A stretch of DNA of 44,894 bases from a virus. A model generated the notes under the pieces. That model had not been told where the DNA came from. It searched no databases and was given only the letters and a program-made list of their open reading frames with translations. The stretch is from IMG/VR virus record IMGVR_UViG_3300049215_000015, positions 1 to 44,894 of that record; one strand, written 5' to 3'. The position numbers were made by a program, and so were the translations under genes. This document shows, piece by piece, positions 1 to 19,471 of the stretch (the stretch's first letter is position 1; each line of letters begins with the position of its first letter).

Positions 1-3000
1 AATAATTAGCTAATGATTTATTATTTCCTCTATCAAATAATAATCTATATCTTTCATCTTGTATATCTCCTTTAAATAATCCTAATTTATTAGAACTATA
101 TAAATAAGATTTCATTGCATCAAATATATCATGCTGTAAATCTACTTTAGCTGTAGATGATATATCTTGTTTACCTAATAATTTAATAGTATCATCTATT
201 ACTTTAGTAATAGTTGTATTAGTATGAGGAAAATATCTACTAAATAATTCATAACCAGCCTTAGCTCCATTTACTACTAATGAACCTACTGCTGTATTAG
301 GCTTTACATAAAAGTCTTCTCCATTACTTTGGGTAAACTGAATATATCCATTATTATCTAAAAATTCTTTATCATTATATCTACTATCAGAAGTGTCTAT
401 ATATTCTCCTATAATAGAATCTATGTTATCTATCCATTTACTTTGTTTAAGAAAACCTACATTATTATATTTATCTATGGCTTCAAACATAGATTTACCT
501 AAACCTTGCCTTTGAATATTTAATTTAGATTGTATTCTAGTTATATTATCAGCATGAGATTTTAATTCTAAAAATAATCCTAATACAGTTTGCTGTATTT
601 TATCATCTATATTACCTTTAATATTATTATATAAATTTACTCCAGTTAATTCTTTTCTTAATTTATCTATACCTTCTTTATCTAACTCAAATATATTAAC
701 TCCATTTCCTTGATTATCTTGGAATAAATCTTTACCCCCATATTTATTTATAAGATTATCTATTATTTTAGTTTCAGCATTTTTATCAAATTCAGTTATA
801 GTAGATTTACTATTCTTCATTGCATCTACATAATCCTTAATAATAGGTTGACTTAGTAAGAAATATGGAATAGATACTTCAATATCTTTATTATCTATTC
901 TAAAACTATCTTTATCAAATCCTAATGAAGTTAATAAACTATCCACATTTATAGTAAGTTCATTTACTCCAACTCTACCCATTATTTGTTCTTTCTCATT
1001 ATCTGTAGCTGTATTTTGTCTTTCAGCTAAAACATCTGCTATACTTCTACTTCCATCTATAGTCTTAACTCTACCTAAATCTCCAATGGATTCAAATTCT
1101 CCTATTTGAATATGTAAAGGTACTCTTTTAACTTGTCCATTTTCATCTGGTACAAAATCCATTAATCTTAATGGTTTATCAGATTGTTGAGTTAAAGCAT
1201 GAAAGGTAACGTAATTTGAATATACTCCTATACCAAGTTTACCAGCAGCACCAATTTTCATTTTAGCTTTCTGATATTCATCTGATAATACACTAAAGTA
1301 TTTATTATCTTTTTTACCTTCATTTAATCCTTCAATAATATCAGCTTGACTTCTAGCAAAGTCCATTGACAATACTCTATTAATCTTCTTCTGTACTCTA
1401 GTATCTGCTGAATTTAATACTGAATTATAGGTTTTAATTATTTCATTTTGTAATATTTTGGATTTAAAATTATTAGTTTTTAATTCATTTATAGGTCTAT
1501 CTAATCCTAATTTATGTATAGTTCCATCATGTAATACTTCATGGTGTAACATATATACATTCTCTTTATCAACATCAAAGTCAAGTCCTTTTTGTTTAGT
1601 AAAGTTCTTAGGTACTATCATTAAATCACCTACTTCATAAGGTAGAAATCCAGCTACTTCAATAGCAGACATAGATACATGACCTGATGTTGGTATTCTA
1701 AATGAAGATAAATTTAGTAAATCTTTATCTATCATTTTATCTTTTAATATCCATTTGTTATCTACTTTATCTATATAGATGTATCTTCCTTCTTTATCTT
1801 GACTAAATAAATCTATTAATTTACCTTCATTATCTCTAAATTTAGAAGCTATTAATACTTGATTAGGTTGAAGTTTATCTTCTAATATTTTAGCTGCACT
1901 TAATTCACCTGAAAAGTTTTTAGTCCATATAATCTTAGATTGGTCTATACCTTGTAAATCTTTACTAAGTTTAAATCCTTCTTGACTACCAGCTACAAAG
2001 CTATTACCAGGGAGACTTAAATTAATAAGTCTATTACTAATAATAGAGTTAAGTAAAGCTTCATATTTATAAGCATTTGGAGTTAACCAAACTGGAACTT
2101 CAAATTCAGATTCTCCTGTATTTGGATTAACAGTTAATTTAAGTGCTTCTAAATCTTGTCTGCTATATCCTCTTTTCTTAACTTCATCATTTAATATACT
2201 TTGAATCTTCTTAGTAGTTTCTTCACTATTAATAGGTAATCCACTTTTTTCATCTATACCAAAGTCTTTGTATAATAATGACTTTTCATTTTTAATCCAT
2301 TCTACAAAATTCTTATTATAATATTGATATAGTTCTTCTCCATTTAATTTTTTTCTAGGAGCATTTCTATCTGGATTATCAAATATATTATCCTTAATAT
2401 CTCTAATACCATCTCCAAATATAAGTTTCATCATTTGAGTACCTAAAGCTATTTCATCTATTTTATTAGATGCAGATTTAAAAGGTACATCTTGTTGTAT
2501 CTTAAAGTATTTTCTATCTAAGGTTAAAGCTGGAGTAGTATTGTTACTATTTTTAATCCCATCTAATATAGATTGAGTATCTATATTTCTGTAATTACCT
2601 TCATTATCCCAAATTTGAAGTTGGTTTTTAGAAGCTATAGCACCTACTTTATTAGCTGTATTATAACTAGCTCTTACATTTAATCCTGATTTATCTTGTA
2701 ATTCTTCTAAATTTCTTCTTAATTTATCTAATTCAGTGCCTTTAGTTAATTGAGGTAATAAAGCAAAAGCAGAAGATTTAATATAAATCATCTTATTTAC
2801 TTGATTTATATTATCTATTTGTTGACCAAAATAAACAGGTTTATGAGGATTTAATACTAATTTTAAATCATCATCTGATAGAAAAGCATCTTCTGGAATA
2901 GGTTGATTATTACTTTCAGCTTTATATTGTTTATTAATTTTATTTAAAAGTATATTATAATTATCTACTGGAAGTCTTCCTTGCCTATATAGAATATCTA

Positions 3001-6000
3001 AAGCTTCTTTAGAAGTAACATATTCTTGAGCATCTGTACTTTCTATATCAAAATAACTAGCTATATCAGGAAATTTATTTTGAAGCTTATTTATTCCATC
3101 TTTATATATAGCTATATTATCTGATTTAGCTTGATTTAACCAACCATTTACTTCAGCATCTATAGCATTACTACCATAAAATAACTTTATAATAGGAACT
3201 ATATTTTCTGATACTGAAACTCTATCTTTAATAAATAGTTGAAGATACTTATCTTCTACTGAATTATATAATAATCTACCGGGAGCTATTAATCCAGCTA
3301 ATCTCTTACCTAAATTAGTTCCCATCTTCCTAGCTAACTTATTATATAATTCATCTGATTTAGCTAAATAAGGTTTACCTTGTGTAAACTCTTTTTCATT
3401 AAATAATTTATTCTGTCCATAATTAGCTACATCTCCAGCTAATGCCATATAAGTATTAGCTTGAGCTATAAAGTTATTAATGATATAATCATAAGCATAC
3501 ATTCTAATACTTTCATCTACATTAGTAGATTTAATATTAGGATTGTTAATGTAATTACTATTTAAGAATTTAACTTTAATTATATTACCATCTTTGTCTT
3601 TATCAAAATATCCATTTTTATCCCAACTATCAATTTTGTCTTTAACTTCTTTATCTAATACCTGTTGAACTATATCTTGAGCCTGATATTTAATTTTATC
3701 TATCAGGTTATTATATTCTTCTTCTGTTTGAATATTACCAGCTTCATTAGCTAAGTAATTAACTAATCTAATATTTCCTATTCTTATATTATTTAATTCA
3801 GGAATAAAATTAAATATTTGTGCAGCTTTATTGTATCCTTCTTGGTTAACTAATTCATCTGCATTAACTTGTAGTTGTTGAGCCTTTTGATGATGATTTA
3901 ATATTCTTTTTAGTTCAGGTTCTACTAATTGAGAAAACAATAATTGTTTTAAATCATTATTTTCTATTTTAGTTATATCTGAATTAAAATGTTTCTTTTG
4001 TAAACTTAATACTATAGTAGATAAATCTGTCATTGTATCTTTATCTGACATAGTAGGAAAGAACATTCTAGCTATTCTAACAGGTAAATCGAATTCTTTA
4101 TTTCCTATTTTAATATTAGTAACTGGTAATTCACCTTGTTGAACATCTTGGAAGAATATTAATCTAGTTAACTCTTGGTCTGCATCTGATAAACCTACTA
4201 ATTCATTATCTTTGTATAAAGATTTACCTATTTCTTTTAATGCATTTATTCCAATATGGTCTATTCTAAATTTATCTCTAAATGAAGGAATATTATTAAG
4301 AGCATTTAATAATAATGAATTTTTACTAAAAGGTAATTGTAATAAATCATCTCTTAATTTAGAAGTTTCTCCTGATAATTCTAGTACTACTTGTGCTGAA
4401 TATTTGGTAGGGGTAACAAAATTAATCAACTTACTACCATCTCTACCACTATTACTTGTAGTATGAATACTATATTTCTTTTCAATATTAGCTAATTTTC
4501 TTAAAGTACCTGTAGAATCATTTAAAGGATGAAGTGTATCATCTTCTACAAAATTAGTACTTTCATTATTATCTAACTTCTGTTTTAATAATCTTAACCT
4601 TTGTTCTAATTGATTAAAGATTCCTTGTTTACTATCAAACATTCTATCAAATGATAATCTAGATTGAGTATCATCTGAATTAGTTATATAATAACCTTTA
4701 TTCATTAGTTCTTTAATAGTCTCATCTCTTAAAGATATACCAAATCTATTTAACCAATGATAAATATCTTGTATCTTAATTTTACTTTTGTCAACTAATT
4801 TCTTCCATTGTTCTAATTGATTAAGTTGATTTTCTAATATAGTTTTATTAATACTATAATTCTCTCCATTCTGTAAAACCATATTAGACATCTTAAAGTT
4901 CTCATACCATGCATCTTGAATAACTCTCATTATTTCATATGCATTTGTATCATAAACTTTAGAAGTCCAATTACTAGTTAATCTATCAAAAGATAACATT
5001 GCAAACTTCATACTCATAGCATGATTAGCAAATGTATATACAAATGAAGCTTTTAATTCATCATCTGCATCTTTTAATCTTCTTATTAGTTCATTAGTCC
5101 AAGGATGACTATTAGTATATTCAGATAGTCTAGTAATTATACTATCAAAATCTGGTTTGATTTCTCTAGGAGAATTTAATAAAGTATTTAATTGATTTGC
5201 ATAATAATCAAATCCTTTATAAATAGGTAATCCTAAAAATCCTTGTTTAATAGTTCCAGACCTAGTATATTCAGGTATATCTGATAAAAATCTTTTTAAA
5301 ACATAACTAGCTTTATCTTTATTACTTTCTTCTAAACTACTCTTAGAATATAATTTTTCAGTTTCACCTATATCTACTATACCACCTTCTTCATCTTTAA
5401 TTTTAATACCAGTATTTTTAGATACATCAAAATCCCAAGCTTCCTCAACCAATTCATTCCAATTATCTTTAACTACTTTAATACTGTTTTTACTATCTTG
5501 TAATCTATCAATAATAGGTTTCATATTAGGAAACTTACCAGACTTAAATAAGTCTGATAATGTATCTAATGAATTATTAATCTTAATTTCAGTTTCACCT
5601 ATTATTTTATCAAAATTATTTTTAGCATTATTAAGTACTTCTGCTGTATTAATATTAAATTTATATTTAGGTAATACTTGTCTTTCAATTTCTCTAGCTA
5701 TAAATCTAACAACTTGTTGTCTATCTATAGTATTTAAATCTTTAACTTTAGTAATATTAGCTTTTACTCTTTCTAATATTTCATCTGTATCATTATCATA
5801 ATTAGGTTGTAGATATTCTTGAGGTATTATTTTACTTATATTTTCTCTAGAAGTAAAATCCAATAGCATATTTTCTATATCCCTTCTTGGAATACCTAAA
5901 TCCAAGAGGTGCTGTACAGAGGAAAGCACATTATCAGGTACTAATTTTTCTGCTTCTTTGGTATCTACTTGAGGTACTTCCTGTTCTACTTGATTTTCTT

Positions 6001-9000
6001 TATCATAAGTAAAGTTAATTATAGGTTGAGTATATGTAGCATATAAAGGTTCTTTAGAAGTTCCTTCATTTATGTTATATGATAATACATTAGTCTTAAA
6101 ACTATCTCTAAGATAATTTTGATAGTTTTCATGTATCTTAGATATATTACCTTCTTTATCTAATAATAATACTGATTTATTTCTTCTAAGTCCTCTCCTA
6201 TCTACATTTTGATAAATATTAGCATTTAATACTTTACTGAATATAAAGTTTAAATCATCTTTAATTGTCTTAGATGCCCAAGCAGGATTAGCATTAAATT
6301 TATCAGTAGATTGAAATACAGAAGGATTTATATACCTAGCCCCATCTTCTCCTAATTTAGTTCCTTTAATACCAAATACAATTCTATGTTTAACTATAGC
6401 TATATATCCAGTACCAAGTTTGATATTATTATTTCTTTCAACTTCATTAAATACATCTTTAGCTTCTTTATATATACTCATATTTCTCACCATCATAAAT
6501 TGAGAAATATAATCTTGTAAGTCTTGTGAGTTAGTTAAATCCCAACCTTGTTTTTTAAGCTTATCATTTAATTCTTTTAATTTAGTACTCATACCTAAAG
6601 CATTTGTACTATCATATTGACTACTATATATACCCATTGCTTGAGTAATACTAGTCTTAACTTCATCTGTAATAAAGTCTTTATATATTGGTAGAGCTAT
6701 ATATTGCTTATCATTTGTTGTTTTTCTAATATCATATATCTCTCCTTTATTTAAATCTTTACTATTAGATAATTCAGATTGTTTAATTATCTTATTATCT
6801 ATTTCAATACCATCCACTCCATTAAAAAATCCTATTTTAGCTTGAGGATTAGCATCTTGAATTTTAATTCTAGGTTTATCTTTATCTATTTTAGTTAAAC
6901 TACCATTTCTTTTATTAGTAATAGTCACTTCAAGATTACCTTTATTTACTATGACTTGCCTTCTTAAATCTAATAATTGTTTTCTAGCATCATTAATTAT
7001 TCTTTCCTGATTAGGTATATCAGCTATATTAAATGGATTATACCATAAGCTATCGTGTATCATAGCTACAGCTTCCCCTTCATTATCATATACAAATAAT
7101 GGTACTCTAGATAACCATTCATCTGAACCAACTTCTATATTATTATCCTTAACCCAATCTCCAAATTTAATAGCTTTATCTTTAGTCCAAGTTTTAGTAT
7201 TCCAATTACTTACTAATATTTCATTTGGATTATCTGGTAGTTTAATAGTTAGTTTATCTCCAGTATTAAATTTAGTAGGGTCAAGTAATTTTTTACTATT
7301 AACATATTGTCCTGAATTTAAGTTATCAGAACTTTTATATATAATTTCAGTATTACCTTCTTCATTTGTTATTATATCCTGAATATAAGGCTTACTTAAG
7401 AAAGCTAATTTTAAATCTGGACTAGCGGTTTGAAATTCATTTGTATTGATAGCTATCTTATCTCCATTATCATTTTCTACAAAGTTTTCAGGTTCATTGT
7501 TTTTTACTTCATTCGTTTGATATATATCTGTATTATCTTCCGTAGAAGTATTATTCCTATCACTATAATTAATAAGGTCATTTAATAACTGTGTTCTATC
7601 TCCAAATACTTCTTGGTAGATTTTGTCAAAATTGGTTTCTCCATATTTATTTTCATTCCATCCTAATTTAAGTATATTATATTTTTTATCTATAATATCT
7701 TTATTAGAATGTCCTATCATATCTTCAATTACTTCTTTAAAATTAGGTTTTCTACCTAATTCAGATTGAAGATTATCTACATAGTTTTTAAATTTATCTT
7801 TTATATCATTTTTAAATCCTTCATCTAATTTAGATGATAATTCTTCTGGATTAAAGAATGAACTATCCTCTTTAACTACTACTGCTTTACCTTGTTTGGT
7901 ATCTACAAATTTGGTATTAGTATTAGTTATATCATTAATTATTTGTTTTCTGTCTGTATTAACAGGATTTATTTGGGGCTGGCTTTCAACTTCTTGTTTC
8001 TGAATAGGAGGTTTAATATCTTCTGTAACTTTCTTAGAAGTTATTTTACTTGCTTTATCATCTATCTGTTGCTCTAGTTCATCTGTTAAATTATTATTAG
8101 ATTTTAAATTAGTTTTTATACTATTTAAATCTTCTACTGTATTAGCATTATCTATTACTTGTTGTAATTTCTTTTGAGTAGATTTAGATTGAAAAGATTT
8201 ATCTTGCCAAGTAGCTAATTGTCCTCTTATGTTATTTCTTTGATTTTCTAATCTAGTCTTTTTTAATTGTTCATTAAATAATTCATTACTAAATGGAATA
8301 CCATTTAATATTAAATTATCATTTTGCTTTTCTTCAGGAGTTCTACTATCATTTTCTGATAATTCTGAAGATGTTTTTTCTAAATAATTTATTCTTTTAG
8401 AAGCTAAATCTAAAGATTTGTTTAATCCTTGCTTAATATTTTCATCTGTTTCATTAGATAATCTTTTTTCTAATTCTTCTCTACTCTGATTTAAAGCTTG
8501 TAATTCATGTTCAATTAGAAAATTATCTCTAGCGTTTATAGATAAATTCTTAAAATCAGGTATCTTAGATATAATATCTTGAATATTAGCTTCATGGTAA
8601 TTAATACCTTCTCCTAATTTCTCAATATCAAATTGCCTTCTAGTTATAGGAACTACAGCTTCTCTATTATTTTTAACTTTATTTTCATCATACAATTCTT
8701 TTATCCTATTAGCATCTTCTATCATTGTAGGATAATTATTCTTAATAAAGTCTATAGTAGCTTTATCATTTGGGTCTATGTTTAAATCTTGTAATCTCTT
8801 ACTATCATTACTATTTACTGCATCTAATGTTCCTTGTAAATGACTATTATATCCTAGAAATCCAGTATTCTCATCTAACAAGTTATCTAAATGTAAACTT
8901 CTTAAAGCAAAATTTATACCTGCATCTCTCCTTATAGCAGCAGATTTATCTATATCTTGCTCTTGGTCAGTATTTTTAATTTGGTCTGCTATTAGTTTAG

Positions 9001-10321
9001 TTAATGCTAGATTATTAGCTATAGCATCTTTATGAGCATATTTTAAACTTCTATTATAATCTCTTTTACCAATATTTTGTACAAAGTGTCCAACTGGTTC
9101 AAGTAATAAACCTCCTAACATACCACCAATAGTAGCATCTATTTCATCTGGAGAAGTAAAATAACTTTGAAGTCTTTTACTAAAATCTTTATTTTGAGTT
9201 AATCCTACTGAAGCATCAGCAGAATATTGACCTTCATCTTGTCCTATTTGTTGTAAAAATTCTTCAAAACCTTCACCTGCTACTTCTCCAAGTATAGTAG
9301 CTCCTTTTCTTAATACTTTATTACTAATACTTCCTATAGTTCTATCTAATAATCCTTCTGAACCACCTGATACTGGATTATAAGTAGCTAACTTCATCAT
9401 TAGTACATCCATTGCTAATAATGGTAAATTCCATCTAGCATCTATAGCAGCAGCATTAGCAGCATTAGCTCTTGCAGTTTTTTCATCTATTCCATTATCT
9501 AATTGTTCTTTATAAGTTTGTTGAAATGTTTGAGTAGCTTCCATTCCAGTTTCACCTAATCTTTTAAATAAAGCTGTTCTAGTAGCAGCCATCTTTATTT
9601 TATCAGCTTCATTTAAACTAGTTAAAGCTTCTGCAAATTTCTTATCTTTTAATAGATTTTTTACTTTATTAATCTGATTAGCTAATTCAGGTATCTCTCC
9701 AAGTCCTTCTGTAGCTGCACCTACAGCCATTGATTCTAGTACTGAACCAGTTAATACACCAGCACTTAATCCCATACTAGCTATTTGATTTCCCCAATAA
9801 CCAGCATCAGTAAATTTATCCCAACCACGTCTTTCTTCTGGAGTATTATCTTTTTGATAAATAGGGAAATTTTCCTGTCCATAATTCATTATATCTTGAC
9901 CAAGATTATAAATACTATTATTATATTGGTCTTCAGCACCAGTGTACATACCAGCCATTTGTTTTAAATCAAACTGGTCTCCTTCAGACATTAATAATCC
10001 ACCTGCTAATTGAGTTACTAATTGAACTGCTGTATTTTTACCTTTCTCTAATAATGGTTGTCCCTCTGCTCTTTGATAATCTAAGATAGGACTTTCTGAA
10101 TAAGGATTAGTAATGTACTTTCTATAACTAGGGTCTAAATTTCCTTGTGACTGCATGGAAATTTCAGTAGGTGTTGGAATACCTTGTTGTTTAGATTGCA
10201 TATCTTTAATCTGACTTTGAACTAAAGCATCTGCATCTGGATTAACTTGTATATTATCTCCTCCACCAATAGGAGTTTGTGAAGTAAGTTGATTTTTTAC
10301 TTCTTTATTTTTATCACCCAT
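1..10321 (-). CDS. Giant virion-associated RNA polymerase / cargo protein (3' end outside window)
   Basis: One frame runs open from the ATG at 10321 to the left edge: at least 3440 residues with no stop seen, so the C-terminus is missing. The ATG follows the previous gene's TAA directly. Residues 1-740 are helical with two hydrophobic stretches (about 173-205 and 400-417). A Pro/Gln-rich linker lies near 770. The polymerase core is near the C-terminal end. IQQDVPFK (2608-2615) and GTQMMK (2627-2632) look like the beta-type barrel. RIPTSGH (from R2875) is followed 39 residues on by DFDVD (D2914, D2916, D2918), matching RxPTxH...DFDGD of cellular beta'. A Gly-rich AGKLGIGVYSN (from A3026) and LLSQPIIKDY (Q3158) follow. 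crAss-like phages are known to carry such an enzyme in the virion and inject it to transcribe early genes; that role here is inferred. It is the last gene seen of the cargo module. The polymerase call is strong; the job of the first 2400 residues is not readable. Confidence 0.9.
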   Translation of the reverse strand, partial: MGDKNKEVKNQLTSQTPIGGGDNIQVNPDADALVQSQIKDMQSKQQGIPTPTEISMQSQGNLDPSYRKYITNPYSESPILDYQRAEGQPLLEKGKNTAVQLVTQLAGGLLMSEGDQFDLKQMAGMYTGAEDQYNNSIYNLGQDIMNYGQENFPIYQKDNTPEERRGWDKFTDAGYWGNQIASMGLSAGVLTGSVLESMAVGAATEGLGEIPELANQINKVKNLLKDKKFAEALTSLNEADKIKMAATRTALFKRLGETGMEATQTFQQTYKEQLDNGIDEKTARANAANAAAIDARWNLPLLAMDVLMMKLATYNPVSGGSEGLLDRTIGSISNKVLRKGATILGEVAGEGFEEFLQQIGQDEGQYSADASVGLTQNKDFSKRLQSYFTSPDEIDATIGGMLGGLLLEPVGHFVQNIGKRDYNRSLKYAHKDAIANNLALTKLIADQIKNTDQEQDIDKSAAIRRDAGINFALRSLHLDNLLDENTGFLGYNSHLQGTLDAVNSNDSKRLQDLNIDPNDKATIDFIKNNYPTMIEDANRIKELYDENKVKNNREAVVPITRRQFDIEKLGEGINYHEANIQDIISKIPDFKNLSINARDNFLIEHELQALNQSREELEKRLSNETDENIKQGLNKSLDLASKRINYLEKTSSELSENDSRTPEEKQNDNLILNGIPFSNELFNEQLKKTRLENQRNNIRGQLATWQDKSFQSKSTQKKLQQVIDNANTVEDLNSIKTNLKSNNNLTDELEQQIDDKASKITSKKVTEDIKPPIQKQEVESQPQINPVNTDRKQIINDITNTNTKFVDTKQGKAVVVKEDSSFFNPEELSSKLDEGFKNDIKDKFKNYVDNLQSELGRKPNFKEVIEDMIGHSNKDIIDKKYNILKLGWNENKYGETNFDKIYQEVFGDRTQLLNDLINYSDRNNTSTEDNTDIYQTNEVKNNEPENFVENDNGDKIAINTNEFQTASPDLKLAFLSKPYIQDIITNEEGNTEIIYKSSDNLNSGQYVNSKKLLDPTKFNTGDKLTIKLPDNPNEILVSNWNTKTWTKDKAIKFGDWVKDNNIEVGSDEWLSRVPLFVYDNEGEAVAMIHDSLWYNPFNIADIPNQERIINDARKQLLDLRRQVIVNKGNLEVTITNKRNGSLTKIDKDKPRIKIQDANPQAKIGFFNGVDGIEIDNKIIKQSELSNSKDLNKGEIYDIRKTTNDKQYIALPIYKDFITDEVKTSITQAMGIYSSQYDSTNALGMSTKLKELNDKLKKQGWDLTNSQDLQDYISQFMMVRNMSIYKEAKDVFNEVERNNNIKLGTGYIAIVKHRIVFGIKGTKLGEDGARYINPSVFQSTDKFNANPAWASKTIKDDLNFIFSKVLNANIYQNVDRRGLRRNKSVLLLDKEGNISKIHENYQNYLRDSFKTNVLSYNINEGTSKEPLYATYTQPIINFTYDKENQVEQEVPQVDTKEAEKLVPDNVLSSVQHLLDLGIPRRDIENMLLDFTSRENISKIIPQEYLQPNYDNDTDEILERVKANITKVKDLNTIDRQQVVRFIAREIERQVLPKYKFNINTAEVLNNAKNNFDKIIGETEIKINNSLDTLSDLFKSGKFPNMKPIIDRLQDSKNSIKVVKDNWNELVEEAWDFDVSKNTGIKIKDEEGGIVDIGETEKLYSKSSLEESNKDKASYVLKRFLSDIPEYTRSGTIKQGFLGLPIYKGFDYYANQLNTLLNSPREIKPDFDSIITRLSEYTNSHPWTNELIRRLKDADDELKASFVYTFANHAMSMKFAMLSFDRLTSNWTSKVYDTNAYEIMRVIQDAWYENFKMSNMVLQNGENYSINKTILENQLNQLEQWKKLVDKSKIKIQDIYHWLNRFGISLRDETIKELMNKGYYITNSDDTQSRLSFDRMFDSKQGIFNQLEQRLRLLKQKLDNNESTNFVEDDTLHPLNDSTGTLRKLANIEKKYSIHTTSNSGRDGSKLINFVTPTKYSAQVVLELSGETSKLRDDLLQLPFSKNSLLLNALNNIPSFRDKFRIDHIGINALKEIGKSLYKDNELVGLSDADQELTRLIFFQDVQQGELPVTNIKIGNKEFDLPVRIARMFFPTMSDKDTMTDLSTIVLSLQKKHFNSDITKIENNDLKQLLFSQLVEPELKRILNHHQKAQQLQVNADELVNQEGYNKAAQIFNFIPELNNIRIGNIRLVNYLANEAGNIQTEEEYNNLIDKIKYQAQDIVQQVLDKEVKDKIDSWDKNGYFDKDKDGNIIKVKFLNSNYINNPNIKSTNVDESIRMYAYDYIINNFIAQANTYMALAGDVANYGQNKLFNEKEFTQGKPYLAKSDELYNKLARKMGTNLGKRLAGLIAPGRLLYNSVEDKYLQLFIKDRVSVSENIVPIIKLFYGSNAIDAEVNGWLNQAKSDNIAIYKDGINKLQNKFPDIASYFDIESTDAQEYVTSKEALDILYRQGRLPVDNYNILLNKINKQYKAESNNQPIPEDAFLSDDDLKLVLNPHKPVYFGQQIDNINQVNKMIYIKSSAFALLPQLTKGTELDKLRRNLEELQDKSGLNVRASYNTANKVGAIASKNQLQIWDNEGNYRNIDTQSILDGIKNSNNTTPALTLDRKYFKIQQDVPFKSASNKIDEIALGTQMMKLIFGDGIRDIKDNIFDNPDRNAPRKKLNGEELYQYYNKNFVEWIKNEKSLLYKDFGIDEKSGLPINSEETTKKIQSILNDEVKKRGYSRQDLEALKLTVNPNTGESEFEVPVWLTPNAYKYEALLNSIISNRLINLSLPGNSFVAGSQEGFKLSKDLQGIDQSKIIWTKNFSGELSAAKILEDKLQPNQVLIASKFRDNEGKLIDLFSQDKEGRYIYIDKVDNKWILKDKMIDKDLLNLSSFRIPTSGHVSMSAIEVAGFLPYEVGDLMIVPKNFTKQKGLDFDVDKENVYMLHHEVLHDGTIHKLGLDRPINELKTNNFKSKILQNEIIKTYNSVLNSADTRVQKKINRVLSMDFARSQADIIEGLNEGKKDNKYFSVLSDEYQKAKMKIGAAGKLGIGVYSNYVTFHALTQQSDKPLRLMDFVPDENGQVKRVPLHIQIGEFESIGDLGRVKTIDGSRSIADVLAERQNTATDNEKEQIMGRVGVNELTINVDSLLTSLGFDKDSFRIDNKDIEVSIPYFLLSQPIIKDYVDAMKNSKSTITEFDKNAETKIIDNLINKYGGKDLFQDNQGNGVNIFELDKEGIDKLRKELTGVNLYNNIKGNIDDKIQQTVLGLFLELKSHADNITRIQSKLNIQRQGLGKSMFEAIDKYNNVGFLKQSKWIDNIDSIIGEYIDTSDSRYNDKEFLDNNGYIQFTQSNGEDFYVKPNTAVGSLVVNGAKAGYELFSRYFPHTNTTITKVIDDTIKLLGKQDISSTAKVDLQHDIFDAMKSYLYSSNKLGLFKGDIQDERYRLLFDRGNNKSLANY

Positions 10322-12586
10322 TTATTCAGATTGAATACTAGTAAGATATTTATTTAAATCTTGAGCTAAATCAGCTTCACTTAATTTATTTTTAAATAAA
10401 GGAAGTTCTGATTTTCCATCTGCTGATGGAATAGTAGCAGTAAAATAACCTTGATTATCTTTATGAACTCTAACATTTAGAGGATAAGAAACTCCTTTCT
10501 TATTATCTAAATCCATTTTATTAACCTGTATTTCTTTACTTCCTCCGTTTTCTATATCAGATATATCATGTAATATAGATTTTTTATAAGGTTCAGTTAA
10601 ATCTTTAAGATATTGTTGTACTTCTGGAATATCAGTATGGTCTTTCAAACCAGAAGCTAATACTCCATCTAAATTAGTTTTATCTAATCTAAGTATATAA
10701 TCTTTTCCATTTAATTTAACCTTTATAGAAGTACCATTATCATTAAATGCTGATACTCTATCTCCAAATAAATCAGAAGGAGATTTACCATTTTGTATAT
10801 CCTTCTGAACTTTATTTAAAGCTTTTCTATCTATTTGTCCATCTGAAGTATTATATAATTTAATTTTATCAGGATTATCTTTTACATATGCATAAACTCC
10901 TTTCCTAACTCCAGCTAAATCTCCAGTTAATTGTATTCCTTTATATTGAGTACTTAAAGATTGTTTATTTTGTTGTAGCCATTTATCTTTAGCATCTGTA
11001 AATCTAGATTGCATTTTATCAAATTTGCTCCATAATAAATAATCATTATATTGAGGAGTATTTTTAAGAGCATTTTTATCTGCATCACTAATCTCTTGGC
11101 TAACCATCATATCATTTATATCATCAAAATTATTTTTTACTTTATTAAGATATTGAGGGTCACTTCTTAATTTACTAAAATTATAAATATCACTATTAGT
11201 ATATTGATAATTCTTTTGTATATCTTTATAAGCAGAAGTTTCTGCTCTATTACTTAATTGCTGTAAATTATATAATTCAGCTTTAGTATAAGTTTCAGTA
11301 GATTTATCTCCTTCAGTTTGAGCTTTTGTTAATTGGTTTTGTAATCCAACCCAATTATTATTTATATCTTCTGTAGTCAAAGATTTACTTCCTTTATCTA
11401 AAATATCTCCTACTATAGTATTATTATAACTACCTTGTAATAATCCATATACATCTCCATTTTCAACATTATCTATTAATTGCTTTCTTTCAGGAGTTGG
11501 ATTAGTAGCTTGTTGTTCATATAACTTTTGTAAGAATTTTTTATCTTGTTCTTTCTTATTATCTTCATCATCTTCTAAATCATCTGCTCTCTTTAAATCA
11601 TGTCCATATTTAGTAGCTTGTAGTTGATGTTGGAATTTAAGTCCTTCCATTGCATATGGATTCTCTGCATCTATCTTATGAGATTTCTCTTCTTCTGTAA
11701 ATGCATATTTTCTAGCACTAGCAGCTAAACTCTTTTGTATTTCATATGGTAATTGACTTATTCCACTTCCATTTAATAAGTCATAATAACCACTTACAGT
11801 AGTTCCATCTGACTTAGTTAATAATTCTTGAGGTTGACTATATTCTCCTAATCTGACTCCTGTTCTTATTTCATCATGTAATTTAGTATCTGCTAAAGCT
11901 TTATTAGTAGCTATATTAACTAATTCAGAATAAGGAACTGTTTTAACTCCATTTTCATCTGTATATCTCCACATTGAGTTTACTCCACTTCCACTTACTT
12001 TATATGAACTAGCTTTAACATCACTTAGATATTTATCAAATATATCACTTACATTCACATCATCTGGTAAATCTTCTGGTTGAAATCTATTATAGTTTCC
12101 AGTATTAGGGTCATATTGTACTCCTTTATCTTGAGAGAGAGCTAATGATTTGGCTCTTTGAAATCTTGAAGGACTTAATTTACCAGCATTAACTTTATCT
12201 TGCATCCTTTTATTCCAATCAATATATCCATTAGCTCTTTCTTCTATAGCAGCTATTCTACCAGATGTCATATCTTGTTGAATATCTCTGGTAACTTGTC
12301 TTACATATGGTAGTTGTTTTCTGTAATCAGCAGGATTTTTAGATATAGTATTAGTTATATCATCTATCCTAGATTGATATTGATTTTGTAATTCTTTAAC
12401 ATCTTGTGCATCATTAGGAATGTGTTTAATAGTAGTTAAAGCATTACCTAATAAATCAGTCTTTTGTATAGTATTATCTATATTATTATCAGCAGTCTCA
12501 ATAACCTTCATCATTAGGTTAGTTGGAGCTTGATACATATAATCTACATCATTAATTGGTGTAGCTGATTGAAAATATTGCCCCAT
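10322..12586 (-). CDS. Capsid cargo / DNA-ejection protein candidate
   Basis: A 754-residue, hydrophilic, almost entirely alpha-helical protein rich in Asn, Gln, Asp and Lys. There is no signal peptide and no clear membrane segment. The N-terminus (MGQYFQSATPINDVDYMYQ) and the following helical repeat-like region (ELQNQYQSRIDDITNTI) resemble proteins found between the muzzle and the giant polymerase in crAss-like phages. A highly charged stretch of Asp, Glu and Lys lies near residues 330-350 and is probably a coiled coil. It starts one base after the stop of the 548-residue gene (TAATATG), and its stop touches the ATG of the giant polymerase gene, so the three are surely co-translated. By position it is likely packaged inside the head and ejected with the DNA. 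This is inference from gene order and composition; no catalytic motif is visible. Confidence 0.65.
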   Translation of the reverse strand: MGQYFQSATPINDVDYMYQAPTNLMMKVIETADNNIDNTIQKTDLLGNALTTIKHIPNDAQDVKELQNQYQSRIDDITNTISKNPADYRKQLPYVRQVTRDIQQDMTSGRIAAIEERANGYIDWNKRMQDKVNAGKLSPSRFQRAKSLALSQDKGVQYDPNTGNYNRFQPEDLPDDVNVSDIFDKYLSDVKASSYKVSGSGVNSMWRYTDENGVKTVPYSELVNIATNKALADTKLHDEIRTGVRLGEYSQPQELLTKSDGTTVSGYYDLLNGSGISQLPYEIQKSLAASARKYAFTEEEKSHKIDAENPYAMEGLKFQHQLQATKYGHDLKRADDLEDDEDNKKEQDKKFLQKLYEQQATNPTPERKQLIDNVENGDVYGLLQGSYNNTIVGDILDKGSKSLTTEDINNNWVGLQNQLTKAQTEGDKSTETYTKAELYNLQQLSNRAETSAYKDIQKNYQYTNSDIYNFSKLRSDPQYLNKVKNNFDDINDMMVSQEISDADKNALKNTPQYNDYLLWSKFDKMQSRFTDAKDKWLQQNKQSLSTQYKGIQLTGDLAGVRKGVYAYVKDNPDKIKLYNTSDGQIDRKALNKVQKDIQNGKSPSDLFGDRVSAFNDNGTSIKVKLNGKDYILRLDKTNLDGVLASGLKDHTDIPEVQQYLKDLTEPYKKSILHDISDIENGGSKEIQVNKMDLDNKKGVSYPLNVRVHKDNQGYFTATIPSADGKSELPLFKNKLSEADLAQDLNKYLTSIQSE

Positions 12587-12587
12587 A

Positions 12588-14234
12588 TTATGAATTACTT
12601 AAAATTGGTCTTCCGTTTTTATCATAACTAATACCTAATCCGTATTTACTTAATTGAGGTAAAAGAGCTAATACATCATCACTTTGTTTTTGAGTATTAA
12701 AATCTTTACCTAATGTTTGAAAACTATGTCCAGCATTAGCCAAGTTACTAGATAAATTACTATAGTAATTATCTATATTTCTTTGATTAATTTGGTCTAT
12801 AGCTGTAGAAGCATTATCCCTATATAAATCTCTAGAAACACTATAATCAGCTTTTTCTTTTAATAACCTAGATATATTACCTGCATAGTCACTATAAGAT
12901 TTAGTTAATGCTTTATTAGTTTCAAGTCCTACAGCAGTATTAGAAGCTCTAGCTATATTAATACTTTGAGAGCCTTGATTATTTCTATTTATAGCAGCTA
13001 TATTATTTGAGTAAATATCATCTAATTCATTATTTCTAGCTTTCTGATAAGTACCTATAGAAGTATCCATTTCATCTAATGCTCTACTAGCAAAATCATT
13101 ATACCTATTCATAGTAGGTAAAGTAGCTTTTCTATCAGCTTTAGTTACAAGTATAGGAGCTATTGCATTAAATAATGTTCCAGCCATTCCTAACATATTA
13201 CCTGTAGTAAATGGAGTTTTAGGATTAAAATTATTTACACTTCCTAAATCTCCCATAGAACTGTTAGGAACATTAACTCCAGTCATAGGTGTAGGAGCTA
13301 CTCCATCATCAAATAATCCATTACTTCCTATTGGTAAAGTACCAACATCATCTGTTCCATATGCTAACTTAGGAGCATTACCAGCACTTTGAGGGTCAAC
13401 ATTAGAAGGATTACTTGATGTATTTTTATTAGTAGCTTGTTTTCTTGCAGCTAATCTTTGAGCAACTTGTTGTAATATCATATCATGTTGCTCTTCATCT
13501 GCATTTATTTCTTTAATTCTACTTAGACTTGCTTTTGTTAATTTATCTAATGGTCTTTTATCTAATATCTTCTGTAATTTAGCTTCTGCTCTTTCTCTAG
13601 ATTTCTTTCTTTCAGCCATTGTTTTACCATCTACTGATAATCTATCACTATATACAGAAGTGCCTTGTGGAAGATTTACATCTATTCCTCCTTGTTCATG
13701 TGAAGCACCATTAAACTGCATTACTTGTCCATTTGGAGTTTCAGCAGCTTCACCTCCTTCAACTTCTACAGGAACATTTCCTCCTAGAGCATATACCATA
13801 CCACCTAATGCTTTTTTAGATTTACTTCTATAAGCATTAACATATGCAGTTAATTCTTGTTGAGCATTAGCATTTCCTTGTTTAGCTAAATTAGCTAATT
13901 GATAAGTATAATCTAATAAACCATGAGGGTCTGTTTTCATTTTATTCAAAGCCCAATTATAATTTTGTTGATATTGTATTTGTGGAAGTTTATCTATACC
14001 AGTATTATTTTCAGGAAAAAATCCTTCTTGTAATACTGGAACTTTACCTCCATCTCCATATTTCTTTCTTTTATGACCAAAATTCTTAGCAAAATTAGCC
14101 ATTTTAATTACACTTGCAGGATATTCTCCTTTATGTGACATTACATGACTTGCTGCTGTACTAACAGACATATGATGCTTTTTTGCCCATCTAGAAAAGC
14201 GACCACGATGACTAGGTTTTATCTTTATACTCAT
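12588..14234 (-). CDS. Capsid cargo protein of crAss-like phages
   Basis: A 548-residue protein with a recognisable three-part plan. The basic N-terminus (residues 5-53, containing SRWAKKHHMSVSTAASHV and KMANFAKNFG) is a small Arg/Lys/His-rich helical domain that could bind DNA. A compact domain follows, with EVEGGEAAETPNG (157-169) and FNGASHEQGGIDVNLP (174-189) and then a charged helix (KTMAERKKSRERAEAK). The C-terminal half has a short hydrophobic helix (GNMLGMAGTLFNAIAPILV, about 343-361) followed by long helices. I recognise this arrangement from the protein encoded just after the muzzle in crAss-like phages, where the position is occupied by an abundant protein packed in the capsid. The 122-bp gap upstream carries a TATATTTA element on the minus strand that resembles a Bacteroidota -7 box, without a convincing -33 box. 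Confidence 0.75.
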   Translation of the reverse strand: MSIKIKPSHRGRFSRWAKKHHMSVSTAASHVMSHKGEYPASVIKMANFAKNFGHKRKKYGDGGKVPVLQEGFFPENNTGIDKLPQIQYQQNYNWALNKMKTDPHGLLDYTYQLANLAKQGNANAQQELTAYVNAYRSKSKKALGGMVYALGGNVPVEVEGGEAAETPNGQVMQFNGASHEQGGIDVNLPQGTSVYSDRLSVDGKTMAERKKSRERAEAKLQKILDKRPLDKLTKASLSRIKEINADEEQHDMILQQVAQRLAARKQATNKNTSSNPSNVDPQSAGNAPKLAYGTDDVGTLPIGSNGLFDDGVAPTPMTGVNVPNSSMGDLGSVNNFNPKTPFTTGNMLGMAGTLFNAIAPILVTKADRKATLPTMNRYNDFASRALDEMDTSIGTYQKARNNELDDIYSNNIAAINRNNQGSQSINIARASNTAVGLETNKALTKSYSDYAGNISRLLKEKADYSVSRDLYRDNASTAIDQINQRNIDNYYSNLSSNLANAGHSFQTLGKDFNTQKQSDDVLALLPQLSKYGLGISYDKNGRPILSNS

Positions 14235-14356: not shown

Positions 14357-17300
14357 TTATCTGTAGGATTCTTTAGAAAGGTCTTTAGAGTAGTTAATCA
14401 CTAAATTAACATTATTAAAATAAGGACTTGTAGTATTATCTAACTTAAATCTCATTATTAAGAACTTATCCATCATAGATTCAAGTTGTGTCCAGTCTTT
14501 AGTAAAACTTATTAATGGATTAGGATTTACTATTGTATTATCATTTATAACTTTATCTATAAAATAATTAGTATAAATATCTGTCCAATAAGAACTAAAC
14601 ATAGGTTTAGTATAATCAATTATATAATCTCTAATATCATTTAAATTCCAATTTCTTTCTTTTCTTGTTGTATATATATTACCAACAGGATTTAAAGTTT
14701 GTTGAAGCATATATGTACTATCAGCCATATCATCTTTAATTATTATAACCTGTTCTCCTGAATTTTGTCTAGAGTTATAAAACATTACTTTGTTAAAAAA
14801 TAAATCATTTATATCTCTAAAATTTAAACCTGAAGGGTCAAATAATTTAGCTATTAATTCAATAGATACATCATCCCAAATTCTAGTTTCTAAAGGATTA
14901 TTAACATTTACTAATTCTAATATAAATGGATATACTACATTATCATATTTACAATATCCTTGAGCAGTATTATTATAACTAATTATATTATGTTTAAGAA
15001 ATCTAGTATTAATTCCATTTTTACTACTACCTTGATTAACTGAATAAAATCCTTCTGGAGAAAATAAATAAGTATTTGGTAGATAACTATGAAATCCTAT
15101 CCATTTATTATTATCTAAATCAAAACTCATTGTCCATGAATGATTCTCAAATATAGTAGGAGTATTAGGTAAAGAAGGAAGTACATAATCTAAATCTTCA
15201 AAATCAATTAAATCTATAGTACTAGTATCACTTCCTGTCTGTATATAAAATAAATTATTATCAAGATTATATCCTACTTGATGTTTAGCCATTGTAGGAA
15301 ATCCACTATTACCATGAAATGATATAAATGGAATACTACCTCCTTGGTCTATATAAGCATTTGCTAATTTATAGTCTTTCTTTGTTATTATTATTCTATT
15401 ATATCTGTTATCATAAGTAGCAGTAAATCCTATTCCATGTGTACTAAACGGATTATTAGTAAAAGGATATTCAATTCCAATCAATGCTCTTAACTCATTT
15501 ACTAATGTATATGGTATATTATTTTTAAAGAAAGTAGCATTTCCAAATTGAGGAGAAGTTAAATTGACTAATTGTTCGCCATCAAATAAATATATAGCTC
15601 TTTCATTTTCAGCTATAAATACAACTCCATCTTTAGCTCTTATAGTTCCCCATTTAGAATTAGTACCAGCATTAGCAATAGTATCTTGTTTAACTAATAC
15701 TGGAGGAACTGAAAAGAACTCACCTGTTCCTAAGAATGATATTACATCATCTGTAGCTCTTTCTTGATATACTCTAGGTAAATGCCATAATCCTCTTCTA
15801 CAATGAACATATAAGTTAGCCTTTATTCTAAATAAATCTGTTATCTCTCCTCTTTCTCCTTCTACATCTTTATAATTATTTGGTAAAAATATAAAATAAT
15901 TATCTGATAATTCTTCTTGAAAAGATTGTTCAGACCAAAATACTCTTGTTGGAAATTGATTTTCAGGATTACAACAGTTATATCCTATTGGTAAAAAGTA
16001 ATATTGTTTTTCTTTTTGTCTTCTGTAATAATCTAAATTACAATCATAAAATTCAGCCATTGGATAACCTCTATATAATCTACCACTTCCTCCAGTACTA
16101 ATAGATTCACTATCTAATGCTGTAAACTTTTCAGTAAGATAATTATCAAAAGCATTTGCTCCAAATGCTCCTAAAACTGAAGATATACTATTTATTCCTG
16201 AAGGAGCATTTACAAAATCACTTCCTGTTGCAGTTATACCTGCTCTAAGTCCTAATGGTACTTGACTTTCAATATATATATTATTAAGTATTCCAGAGAA
16301 CCATCTAATAGTATCTGAATTTAAACTACTAAATGAACAAGTCATTGCAAGACCAGTATCTTTAATAGCATCATGTAAACCATTATTATAATCTACATTT
16401 ATCATCTGTTGTAGATTCTCATTCTTTATACCAGCTTGTACTAATGAAACTCCAGCAGCAATAGCCATACTAGTTAATACAGTAAGGGCTGTAGCTCCTA
16501 ATTCAGCAGATATAGCTTGACCAACTCCAGGAACTACATTTACAACTACAGCAGCAACTAGTAATACAACTCCTGCTACAAGTTCCCAAAAAGCTTTAGT
16601 AGCTGCTGCTCTATTAGCAGGACTGCCTATTTGAGTATCTGAAAAACAAGAGCTAGTCAAATTAGTACATGAAATATAAGTATCTCCTCCAAATACTTTT
16701 ATACCATTTAATGTACTAGTTCCATTAAACATTACTGGATTAGCATGTTCTCTATAATAAGTTCTATTAGCAAAATTAGAATAAGCATTTGTTAATCCTG
16801 ATTCTAATGTAACTATTAATACTCTTCCTAACTGAGAATCATCAGCAGCACTAGAAGACCTACTACCATCAGGGTCATAATATAGAAATGCTGGTAATGG
16901 AGAAGTATATTGTATTATTCCTATCTTATTATCTCCTGAAGCATTATAATAGACATTACCTGCATCTGTTATAGATGAAGCTGCATCTAAATAAATAAGT
17001 TTAGTAAAATCAGGTAAATCAGTCATTGAAGGGTCATAAGCATATCCTAGAACAGAAGATTTCCATCCTATAAACATATCATATGGAACTCCATTTGAAG
17101 CTTGATAAGTACTACCAACTTGTATTTTTGGAACATAAGTTCCTAAATCTCCTACTCCTGTTAAAGTAAGTAATGCTTGAATCCCATTTCTATATCCAGT
17201 TGACCAACTTCCACTTCCAGAAGCTAATATAGCAGCATTAGTAGCAGATTGATAAGTAGTAGCTCCATATTTATAATAAGCTTGTATCTTTAAATTCTTA

Positions 17301-19471
17301 GGTTGTAATCTCTTATTATTATAAGCAAATTCAGGATACCATAGATATGCTCCTATAGTTGATTCAACCATATTTTGAGTATATCCACTTGGTTTATCAG
17401 ATAAATAAATAAAAGGATAAAATTCAGGATAAAATTGATTAAACACATGATATTCAGTACTTCCTCCTCCAATTATATTTCTAGTCATCATTCCTGATAT
17501 ACCATTATCTAAAACTAGTTTATCATTATCTGTTCTTTCAATTCTAGTAATATAAAATCCTATAGCATCTGGAGGAGCTATAATATTATCAAATTTTAAT
17601 CCGTATAAATTAGAACTAACTGCATTATTAACAGTAGCTACAGTAACAGTATTCTTTGAACCAATAGTTATTACAAATGTATCTGAACCAAGTATAGGAG
17701 TTTGATATTGTGCTAATTCACAATCAGGGTCTAATTGTATATATGCTCCACTAAAATAAGTAACTAAATCATCTATATCATCATATATAAGTATAGCATT
17801 ACCCATTACATCTTGAGTAATTTGTACATCTGTTGTAAATATATTAGGTGAATTTGAAGGTTTGTATCTGAAAGTAGCATTTATTACCAAAGGTCTTCCA
17901 GCACCATCTACAGGAAATGTATGTCCACTATTTAATGTAACAGTTAATGATATATTGTATTTATTTATATTTACTGTACCTGCATTTTGTATTAATGGAT
18001 TAGTACTATTATCTCTATAAGGAAACTTATGTTGTCTTATTTTCTTTCCACTTAAAGGATTACCTTGCCAATCATTTCCCCAAAAATTATTAGCTCCATT
18101 ACAAGAATATATATCAGCATAAGCATTATCACATTCATATAGTTCCATTCCTGTAGTATTATCAGGAGAACCCGGAATATGAAATGAAGGACTTAAAGAC
18201 ATATCTTTCATTAAATATTGTATTCCAAGACTATAAGCTTCTCCCGGCATATATTCAATGAAAAGAAAACCACTATTTAGATTTTTTATATTAGCAGAAT
18301 CATATTGACTATTAACTATTTCAGTTCTAGTTGTTAAACTAGTTTTTATCTGACTAGCATATTGTTGATAATTACACCAATTATATTTAGTATCTTGAGC
18401 ATTTGCAAGTATAAGTCTATTCTCTAATTGCTCTATATGTTTAGGAGCAAGAATTATATTTTTATCAATACTAATATCAGCTAAAGGAATTTGTATTAAT
18501 TGTGCATCATTACCTCTATAAATATAAGAAGATGAATTTATAGATATTGGGTCAGAACCATATACTTTAGTAGGAAATCCATCTCCACTTATTGCTTGAA
18601 TAATTGCTATTCTATAATAAGGAAAATTATTATCTAAATTACCTACATTAATTTTTAAAGCTTTATTAGTTTCTCTAAAATTTTGAGCATCATTAGTTAT
18701 ATATCTACTACCTCTAATATTACTAAATGTATTTTGACTATTATCATTATATATTTTAGTAACTCCTGATACTGTTATCCAATTTGTAGGATTTAAATCC
18801 TCGTCCAAATATTGAATTGCAAAATTATAACTACCTGATTTAATAGTTCCTCCATCTTGTTCAGATATAGATTCAAAGAAAGGAACTCTAGTATATGTTT
18901 TTATTAATTCAAAAGATTGTATATTCCATTTAACTCCACTAAAAGCTGGACTTCTAGTTCCAGATAACCATACTTTATATGCACTTGTATAATAATTTTG
19001 TTGTTTATCTATATTAAACTGTCTAGCATTATGAAGTCCATCTACCCAATATACTACTATTTCATTACCTCTTCTAACTCTATAAGTAGCATCTATAGGA
19101 TAATCTTGACTAAATCCTAAATTATTACTTCCATTAGGAGTATTTACTAATACTGTATATGTATCTGAACTATCTAATAGTCCTATTTCACTACTACTAT
19201 CATTTAAATTAGTACTCCATACTATAATACCTCTTTCTCCTATATATAAATGTCCTATTACTTTATATCCATTACCACTATTTAAAGTAGCTACTTGTAC
19301 ATTTGATTCTTCATTTGATACAAAATTTCTATCTCCTTGTACTGTTTGAGTAATACCATTCAATAAAAATCTATAAGTACCTTCTGGTTGGTCAACAGGA
19401 GAATTATCTGTATGTAATCCAGAGTAAGGTCTTTGTATATAAATATCTTTGTTTTGATTATTAGTTGGCAT
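14357..19471 (-). CDS. Tail stabilisation / muzzle protein (P22 gp10-like)
   Basis: A 1704-residue protein beginning MPTNNQNKDIYIQRPYSGLH, the typical start of the crAss-like tail stabilisation protein, which forms the distal muzzle of the short tail. The bulk is beta-rich with many Tyr, Asn, Ser and Gly, as expected for a beta-propeller/tail needle-type tube. An unusual hydrophobic insertion spans residues 962-1014 (WELVAGVVLLVAAVVV through SMAIAAGVSLVQAG), two adjacent hydrophobic helices in an otherwise soluble protein. The ATG overlaps the stop of the tail tubular gene by one base (TAATG), so translation is coupled. It lies between the ring protein and the cargo genes, the conserved order of this phage group. 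Identification is by family resemblance and order, and confidence is high; the role of the insertion is unknown. Confidence 0.85.
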   Translation of the reverse strand: MPTNNQNKDIYIQRPYSGLHTDNSPVDQPEGTYRFLLNGITQTVQGDRNFVSNEESNVQVATLNSGNGYKVIGHLYIGERGIIVWSTNLNDSSSEIGLLDSSDTYTVLVNTPNGSNNLGFSQDYPIDATYRVRRGNEIVVYWVDGLHNARQFNIDKQQNYYTSAYKVWLSGTRSPAFSGVKWNIQSFELIKTYTRVPFFESISEQDGGTIKSGSYNFAIQYLDEDLNPTNWITVSGVTKIYNDNSQNTFSNIRGSRYITNDAQNFRETNKALKINVGNLDNNFPYYRIAIIQAISGDGFPTKVYGSDPISINSSSYIYRGNDAQLIQIPLADISIDKNIILAPKHIEQLENRLILANAQDTKYNWCNYQQYASQIKTSLTTRTEIVNSQYDSANIKNLNSGFLFIEYMPGEAYSLGIQYLMKDMSLSPSFHIPGSPDNTTGMELYECDNAYADIYSCNGANNFWGNDWQGNPLSGKKIRQHKFPYRDNSTNPLIQNAGTVNINKYNISLTVTLNSGHTFPVDGAGRPLVINATFRYKPSNSPNIFTTDVQITQDVMGNAILIYDDIDDLVTYFSGAYIQLDPDCELAQYQTPILGSDTFVITIGSKNTVTVATVNNAVSSNLYGLKFDNIIAPPDAIGFYITRIERTDNDKLVLDNGISGMMTRNIIGGGSTEYHVFNQFYPEFYPFIYLSDKPSGYTQNMVESTIGAYLWYPEFAYNNKRLQPKNLKIQAYYKYGATTYQSATNAAILASGSGSWSTGYRNGIQALLTLTGVGDLGTYVPKIQVGSTYQASNGVPYDMFIGWKSSVLGYAYDPSMTDLPDFTKLIYLDAASSITDAGNVYYNASGDNKIGIIQYTSPLPAFLYYDPDGSRSSSAADDSQLGRVLIVTLESGLTNAYSNFANRTYYREHANPVMFNGTSTLNGIKVFGGDTYISCTNLTSSCFSDTQIGSPANRAAATKAFWELVAGVVLLVAAVVVNVVPGVGQAISAELGATALTVLTSMAIAAGVSLVQAGIKNENLQQMINVDYNNGLHDAIKDTGLAMTCSFSSLNSDTIRWFSGILNNIYIESQVPLGLRAGITATGSDFVNAPSGINSISSVLGAFGANAFDNYLTEKFTALDSESISTGGSGRLYRGYPMAEFYDCNLDYYRRQKEKQYYFLPIGYNCCNPENQFPTRVFWSEQSFQEELSDNYFIFLPNNYKDVEGERGEITDLFRIKANLYVHCRRGLWHLPRVYQERATDDVISFLGTGEFFSVPPVLVKQDTIANAGTNSKWGTIRAKDGVVFIAENERAIYLFDGEQLVNLTSPQFGNATFFKNNIPYTLVNELRALIGIEYPFTNNPFSTHGIGFTATYDNRYNRIIITKKDYKLANAYIDQGGSIPFISFHGNSGFPTMAKHQVGYNLDNNLFYIQTGSDTSTIDLIDFEDLDYVLPSLPNTPTIFENHSWTMSFDLDNNKWIGFHSYLPNTYLFSPEGFYSVNQGSSKNGINTRFLKHNIISYNNTAQGYCKYDNVVYPFILELVNVNNPLETRIWDDVSIELIAKLFDPSGLNFRDINDLFFNKVMFYNSRQNSGEQVIIIKDDMADSTYMLQQTLNPVGNIYTTRKERNWNLNDIRDYIIDYTKPMFSSYWTDIYTNYFIDKVINDNTIVNPNPLISFTKDWTQLESMMDKFLIMRFKLDNTTSPYFNNVNLVINYSKDLSKESYR

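Follow-up and report, generated by a model that had tools for sequence, protein, structure and literature searches.

A cysteine-free cargo-polymerase fusion in a crass-like phage fragment and paired terminal cysteines at the gene borders of its relatives

The window, i. e. the whole stretch of 44,894 nucleotides analysed here (IMG/VR record IMGVR_UViG_3300049215_000015), begins with a single giant frame on the minus strand (10321..2). The frame starts with ATG, contains no stop in 3440 codons and runs off the left contig edge. With the base composition of the frame, the probability that a stop-free run over 3440 codons arises by chance is about 10^-156. The following features are referred to in the text:

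2..10321, minus strand: giant frame, gp67-like cargo plus gp66-like virion RNA polymerase; 3440 residues, C-terminal end missing, without cysteine
6002..10321, minus strand: counterpart of gp67 (phi14:2) and gp47 (crAss001); residues 1-1440, of which 40-800 are predicted to be all-helical
5957..5998, minus strand: linker ENQVEQEVPQVDTK, residues 1442-1455; a gene border in relatives lies at this site
7946..8014, minus strand: Pro/Gln-rich linker of the original prediction, residues 770-792; not the main border of the split relatives mapped
2..6001, minus strand: counterpart of the virion RNA polymerases gp66 (phi14:2) and gp50 (crAss001), residues 1441-3440; about 570 C-terminal residues missing
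1517..3064, minus strand: catalytic two-barrel core, residues 2420-2935
1568..1582, minus strand: DFDVD metal-binding motif, residues 2914-2918
10322..12586, minus strand: 754-aa cargo-type protein directly upstream of the giant frame (PHROG 14670), without cysteine; its junction is of the negative-control type
12588..14234, minus strand: 548-aa cargo-type protein (PHROG 15413), without cysteine
14357..19471, minus strand: crassvirus muzzle protein (Pfam PF25731)
19471..20538, minus strand: crassvirus tail ring protein 1 (PF24228)
21313..22038, minus strand: crassvirus tail ring protein 2 (PF25702)
35378..36835, minus strand: crassvirus major capsid protein (PF23898)
38314..40776, minus strand: portal protein (PHROG 6547)
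40914..43007, minus strand: terminase large subunit (PHROG 6681)

Crassvirus capsid, muzzle and ring proteins as well as portal and terminase are all encoded in the window and identify it as part of the genome of a crass-like phage. The Fpv phages are the closest isolates, and NCBI classifies them as Fipvunavirus, outside the Crassvirales; the window virus may belong to that order or to the neighbouring Fipvunavirus group. Elsewhere in the window, two adjoining genes (24655-25917 and 25946-26833) encode proteins with near-identical starts (MSTQLVDRQISD and MSTQIVNRQIAD). The former weakly resembles families of tail fibres and of head decoration proteins, and the two may be duplicated decoration or fibre genes. 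Two small proteins encoded at 31055-32437 contain 6 and 13 cysteines, unlike the cysteine-free cargo genes. The one with 13 ends in ..CSNC and had no match in a PHROG search.

Direct sequence searches of Pfam and the PDB with the giant frame returned no matches, and its identification required relatives and a fold model. PHROG 16227, a 4401-column profile of a virion structural protein, matched the frame with 1031 bits. The identity to gp33 of Fpv1-type Flavobacterium phage (4401 aa) is 36% over the last 1000 residues and 28% for residues 838-2439. Judging by these matches, the giant frame is a real gene. The original prediction of a single frame of at least 3440 residues without a stop up to the edge was thus confirmed, and the homologues are real genes. 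Its description of the protein as partly hydrophobic holds only weakly, the best 19-residue Kyte-Doolittle mean (1.33) being below the usual cut-off for membrane helices. In 45 relatives with intact ends the protein continues for 530-1911 residues beyond the point at which the window is cut, mostly 562-590 among the closest ones; hence the whole gene should comprise about 4000 codons.

The C-terminal part contains the polymerase core. The three aspartates of DFDVD are invariant across 46 aligned relatives, and the core alignment of these sequences has 17 invariant columns. Compared with gp66 of phi14:2, the core gave an E value of 1e-18 in pairwise BLAST and 6e-121 with an iterated profile. 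An AlphaFold2 model of residues 2280-3160 (pLDDT 86.7, pTM 0.86) had as its top match in a PDB fold search 6VR4, the virion polymerase of phi14:2 (E 2.5e-30), followed by QDE-1 (E 6.9e-4). These two fold matches agree with the two double-psi barrels that had been expected in this region, as far as the overall PDB match goes. Sequence and fold model together assign the giant frame to the crassvirus virion RNA polymerases, catalytic subunit, for which packaging is known from relatives only: packaging in the virion and ejection are established in the relatives phi14:2 and crAss001 (PMC10172136).

The domain formed by residues 57-770 is present in 76 frames of relatives, mostly as the N-terminal part of fused giants or as a separate protein upstream of the polymerase, which supports the idea of a cargo protein fused to an RNA polymerase. 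When the ends of the separate proteins are extrapolated to the window, the border falls at about residues 1416-1530, near the linker starting at 1442. In phi14:2 gp66 the core begins at 952. By this comparison, residues from about 1450 to 2400 are the N-terminal half of the polymerase itself and the foreign part comprises only about 1450 residues, whereas the original prediction had assumed a leader of about 2400 residues. It had also named the linker near 770 as a natural border for processing. The Pro/Gln-rich stretch does exist, but it lies inside the gp67-like part, and the split relatives argue against residue 770 as a gene or cleavage border. The model of residues 40-800 is all-helical (pLDDT 74, pTM 0.55), and comparison of this model with the PDB gave no meaningful match. 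A role of the N-terminal part in the passage through tail and envelope would be in keeping with the lack of cysteine and with the cargo model known for crassviruses (PMC10172136).

Taken alone, the giant frame is one more member of the already known cargo/polymerase fusions. Fpv1 gp33, annotated as structural protein only, is likewise a fusion of a gp67-like part with the polymerase, and the gene order matches the window, with cargo-type genes of 732 aa and 628 aa upstream. Unlike the frame in the window, gp33 is complete; it ends in ..KNCN and the next protein, gp34, starts with MACT. Fused polymerases in crass-like phages have been mentioned (PMC10770324), and the annotation of the p-crAssphage record has the catalytic subunit fused to another polymerase subunit. 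In phi14:2, whose gp66 (PDB 6VR4) shares the homologous catalytic core and the DFDxD motif, gp67, gp66 and gp65 are three separate proteins, whereas in the window the first two form one polypeptide. The equivalent components of crAss001 are gp47, gp50 and gp49, which were found in virions (PMC10172136); gp47 is encoded away from gp50-gp49 on the opposite strand. A two-barrel virion polymerase fused to an ejected structural protein also occurs in gp96 of Thermus phage P23-45, but this phage is long-tailed, the polymerase is N-terminal and its partner is the tape measure (PMC10770324).

From the other proteins of the window, 40.0 cysteines would be expected in the giant frame; its 3440 residues contain none (P ~4e-18). 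The gp67-gp66-gp65 chain is almost cysteine-free throughout 137 non-redundant relatives. No internal cysteine is present in 85 of the 137 clusters, nor in any of the eight complete one-piece fusions (4799-5711 residues each, about 41,000 in total). The avoidance is not absolute, with up to 28 internal cysteines in some lineages. At four loci (L128, L130, L160, L168) it is relaxed, the polymerase having 12-28 internal cysteines, yet the terminal pair described below is kept. N4-type gp50 and T7 gp15 and gp16, which are also large or giant ejected virion proteins, contain no cysteine either, as checked here. For N4-like virion polymerases this has been published and linked to the passage through tail and periplasm (PMC3715699, PMC2784036). 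Unlike the crassvirus enzyme, the N4-type polymerase belongs to an unrelated T7-like family and has no terminal cysteine pairs.

Full-length relatives do have a single cysteine within the last residues (..KCK, ..NCN), and the protein that follows the polymerase starts with MxC and is otherwise nearly free of cysteine. To describe this pattern, loci were gathered by the polymerase region only, ignoring cysteine; clustering at 90% identity left 137 of them. Junctions with large neighbour genes on both sides of the polymerase gene were scored for cysteine in the last ten residues of the upstream protein and in residues 2-7 of the downstream protein. Among 214 junctions, both facing ends had a cysteine in 127 and neither in 83; it was found upstream only in 4 and downstream only in none (Fisher 3e-55). 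Nearly all cases with neither are borders between the giant and the 754-aa-type protein, which serve as an internal negative control: on the upstream side of the polymerase gene, where the neighbour is mostly this type, 77 junctions had no cysteine at either end, and the 754-aa type was never paired. Background ORFs of the same loci had a cysteine in residues 2-7 in 9/184 cases (5%) and in the last ten residues in 22/184 (12%). The closest relatives of the window virus have cysteines at both facing ends of the gp66/gp65 junction.

The pair is confined to the gp67-gp66-gp65 chain and is absent after fusion. Separate gp65 proteins, identified by their own profile, have an N-terminal cysteine in 97 of 99 cases, and the remaining two resemble fragments of broken genes. 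A C-terminal cysteine is found in 0/22 gp65 fusions and in 0/93 last members of the chain. Chains of three proteins were seen in sixteen loci. At L039 the polymerase protein is cut once more, and a new cysteine pair is present at the added cut. A tree of 132 cores requires no fewer than 14 changes of the split state at the first junction and no fewer than 11 at the second, these counts being approximate because the tree is a quick one under a simple model. In phylogenetically independent pairs, cysteine followed the cut in 8/9 cases at the first junction (0 in the opposite direction) and in 5/5 at the second; the single pair in which cysteine did not differ is accounted for by L182, whose frame is interrupted by a frameshift. 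Thus the pair tracks the cut.

Among named phages, the pair occurs in phi14:2, crAss001, crAss002, p-crAssphage, jaberico, Fpv1, cr118_1, cr55_1, cr3_1, cr107_1 and ctcc615. There are two pairs in phi14:2 (gp67 ..TIC / gp66 MACK..QECK / gp65 MSCK..), and the termini of crAss001 fit the rule as well (gp47 ..RCNS / gp50 MSKRC..KICGANTLYEL / gp49 MAKKC..). All translations used table 11; in a brief look at recoded lineages, the ends of cr125_1 fit the rule. This terminal pairing was not found in the literature searched, which leaves earlier phi14:2 polymerase or 2018 crAss genome papers that may mention it. The cysteine rule is strong and apparently unreported; what appears to be new is the terminal pairing, while fusions and the cysteine-free giant virion polymerases of N4-like phages were known already.

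Several apparent exceptions concern the positions of ends. In the polymerases of L074, L077 and L084, a CGC lies about 25 residues from the C-terminus. L095 is an exception to the rule: no cysteine was found near the polymerase end and no gp65 was detected. These four loci have a gene of 166-177 codons and an 'AEGGE'-type gene inserted after the polymerase stop. At L073 the cysteine is at residue 8. The annotated start of crAss002 gp33 (L015:10629) is 34 codons too early: the cr107_1 orthologue starts with MSCTPSNPK, and identical residues lie in frame downstream of the annotated start. The frames of L137 and L182 are broken, and probably so are those of L047 and of L038, the latter compared with the longer, near-identical L040. 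At L088 the polymerase frame is broken upstream of a ..KKNCK end and the cysteine is regained in the continued frame; a GIY-YIG-type endonuclease gene (L088:14768-15341) lies between the polymerase and gp65 genes.

A likely interpretation is that separate gp67, gp66 and gp65 are joined by terminal disulfides where the fused ones are joined by peptide bonds, and that they are ejected as one thread. The giant frame would then represent the first two links (gp67-like protein and RNA polymerase) of a three-part chain that crass-like phages carry in their virions and eject into the host before the DNA. One type of link would be the peptide bond between fused genes, as for gp67-gp66 in the window virus. 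The other would be formed by two cysteines, one among the final residues of the upstream protein and one among the initial residues of the downstream protein, and would most likely be a disulfide in the virion; with it in place of a peptide bond, the cargo would still leave as one chain. The joined proteins could be drawn through the narrow tail as a single unfolded thread, in fixed order and in a 1:1 ratio, and the reducing cytoplasm of the host would then release the polymerase. Avoidance of cysteine elsewhere in the chain would keep incorrect disulfides from forming in the periplasm and outside the cell. While the pairing is a direct observation, disulfide formation, its timing, threading and release are what we infer from it.

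Published data are compatible with such a chain. Virion proteins of crassviruses must pass constrictions of <50 angstroms at least partly unfolded, and all three cargo proteins were detected in virions of phi14:2 and crAss001 (PMC10172136). Disulfides were observed in the crAss001 tail (PMC10172136), and hence oxidation of virion proteins does occur in the crassvirus group. What speaks against a disulfide is that capsids are assembled in the reducing cytoplasm, so that oxidation must be a later step. For the window virus, which is cut before the C-terminus of the polymerase, the terminal cysteine is a prediction only: the missing C-terminus should have a cysteine within about the last four residues, and the following gene should have about 1550 codons and start with MxC. 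On balance, and with slightly more reserve, we would extend the interpretation to crass-like phages in general, in which the transcription machinery would be a head-to-tail train, linked by terminal disulfides or fusion, ejected as one thread whose parts are released by reduction inside the host, conserved in crassviruses and environmental relatives.

The main rival to the disulfide is that the paired cysteines bind a metal ion or form a docking site without a covalent bond. The pairing rule requires only that both ends act jointly, and cysteines bind metals too. Yet a typical zinc site needs more than a single cysteine from each partner, the residues around the cysteines are variable, and no second cysteine or histidine recurs in the terminal residues inspected, so that we regard this as unlikely. 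Still less probable is a different covalent bond (a thioether, or a ligation mediated by a thioester) that would make the joint a permanent fusion. Whole-gene fusions are tolerated and a permanent link would therefore work, but native ligation needs the cysteine at the N-terminus, whereas the downstream cysteine is at position 3-8 and never the first residue; moreover, the cargo domains extend right up to the terminal cysteines, which leaves no space for intein halves. Pairing of like ends with each other is disfavoured, since the facing cysteines are either present together or both absent.

Two further readings concern the leader and the mRNA. In the original prediction, the N-terminal region could be a leader that is removed inside the capsid by cleavage at the linker near 770. 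Apart from this linker-like sequence, the zincin-type HExxH of many relatives could be taken in its favour. No evidence of cleavage was found, the separate proteins put the border at about 1450, the N-terminal domain is widely retained, fused or separate, and fusions recur many times, which makes a cleaved leader very improbable. That the cysteines just reflect a nucleotide signal at the junctions, such as translational coupling, and have no role in the protein, can hardly be upheld. Most junctions are indeed tight, often with an overlap of 1-4 bases, but those with the upstream 754-aa-type gene are just as tight and never have the pair. Both cysteine codons are used (TGT 212, TGC 36) at varying distances from start or stop. 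The rule also holds for genes on opposite strands in crAss001 and for partners lying 0.5-2.3 kb apart, where a gene of about 160 codons, a GIY-YIG-type endonuclease gene or several genes intervene. Hence a cause at the level of the mRNA is strongly disfavoured, and the pairing acts at the level of the protein.

The most abundant human gut phages have to bring a polymerase of several hundred kDa through a channel of <50 angstroms with the order and stoichiometry of the cargo kept. If the cargo is coupled by disulfides, ejected phage proteins would be held together by covalent bonds that reduction can release, and the fluid gene borders in the cargo block would be explained, as each cut costs only two cysteines. 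For crAss001 the coupled species is predicted to have about 0.69 MDa, the sum of 262.5, 276.9 and 154.5 kDa for its three proteins, and the predicted linked tryptic peptides are CNS-S-S-CITTNSTIEELAAK (1812.823 Da) and ICGANTLYEL-S-S-CAIIPQVR (1992.017 Da; computed masses). In addition, the cysteine rule is a practical guide to true starts, true ends and broken genes among giant frames.

The zincin-type HExxH usually lies in the C-terminal part of the polymerase. It is also found at residue 245 of gp65 of L014 and at residue 108 of the downstream protein of L133. As it precedes the gp66/gp65 border in some lineages and follows it in others, the border itself may have moved; judged from the motif, a protease that takes part in processing is conceivable. 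Thioredoxin-family genes follow the polymerase block, separated from it by a few genes, in p-crAssphage (L193:24179-25446), jaberico (L018:24823-25098) and ctcc615 (L017:14396-14665). They could be relevant if the cargo is linked by disulfides, or they could serve nucleotide metabolism. In p-crAssphage there are two of them, one of which is truncated.
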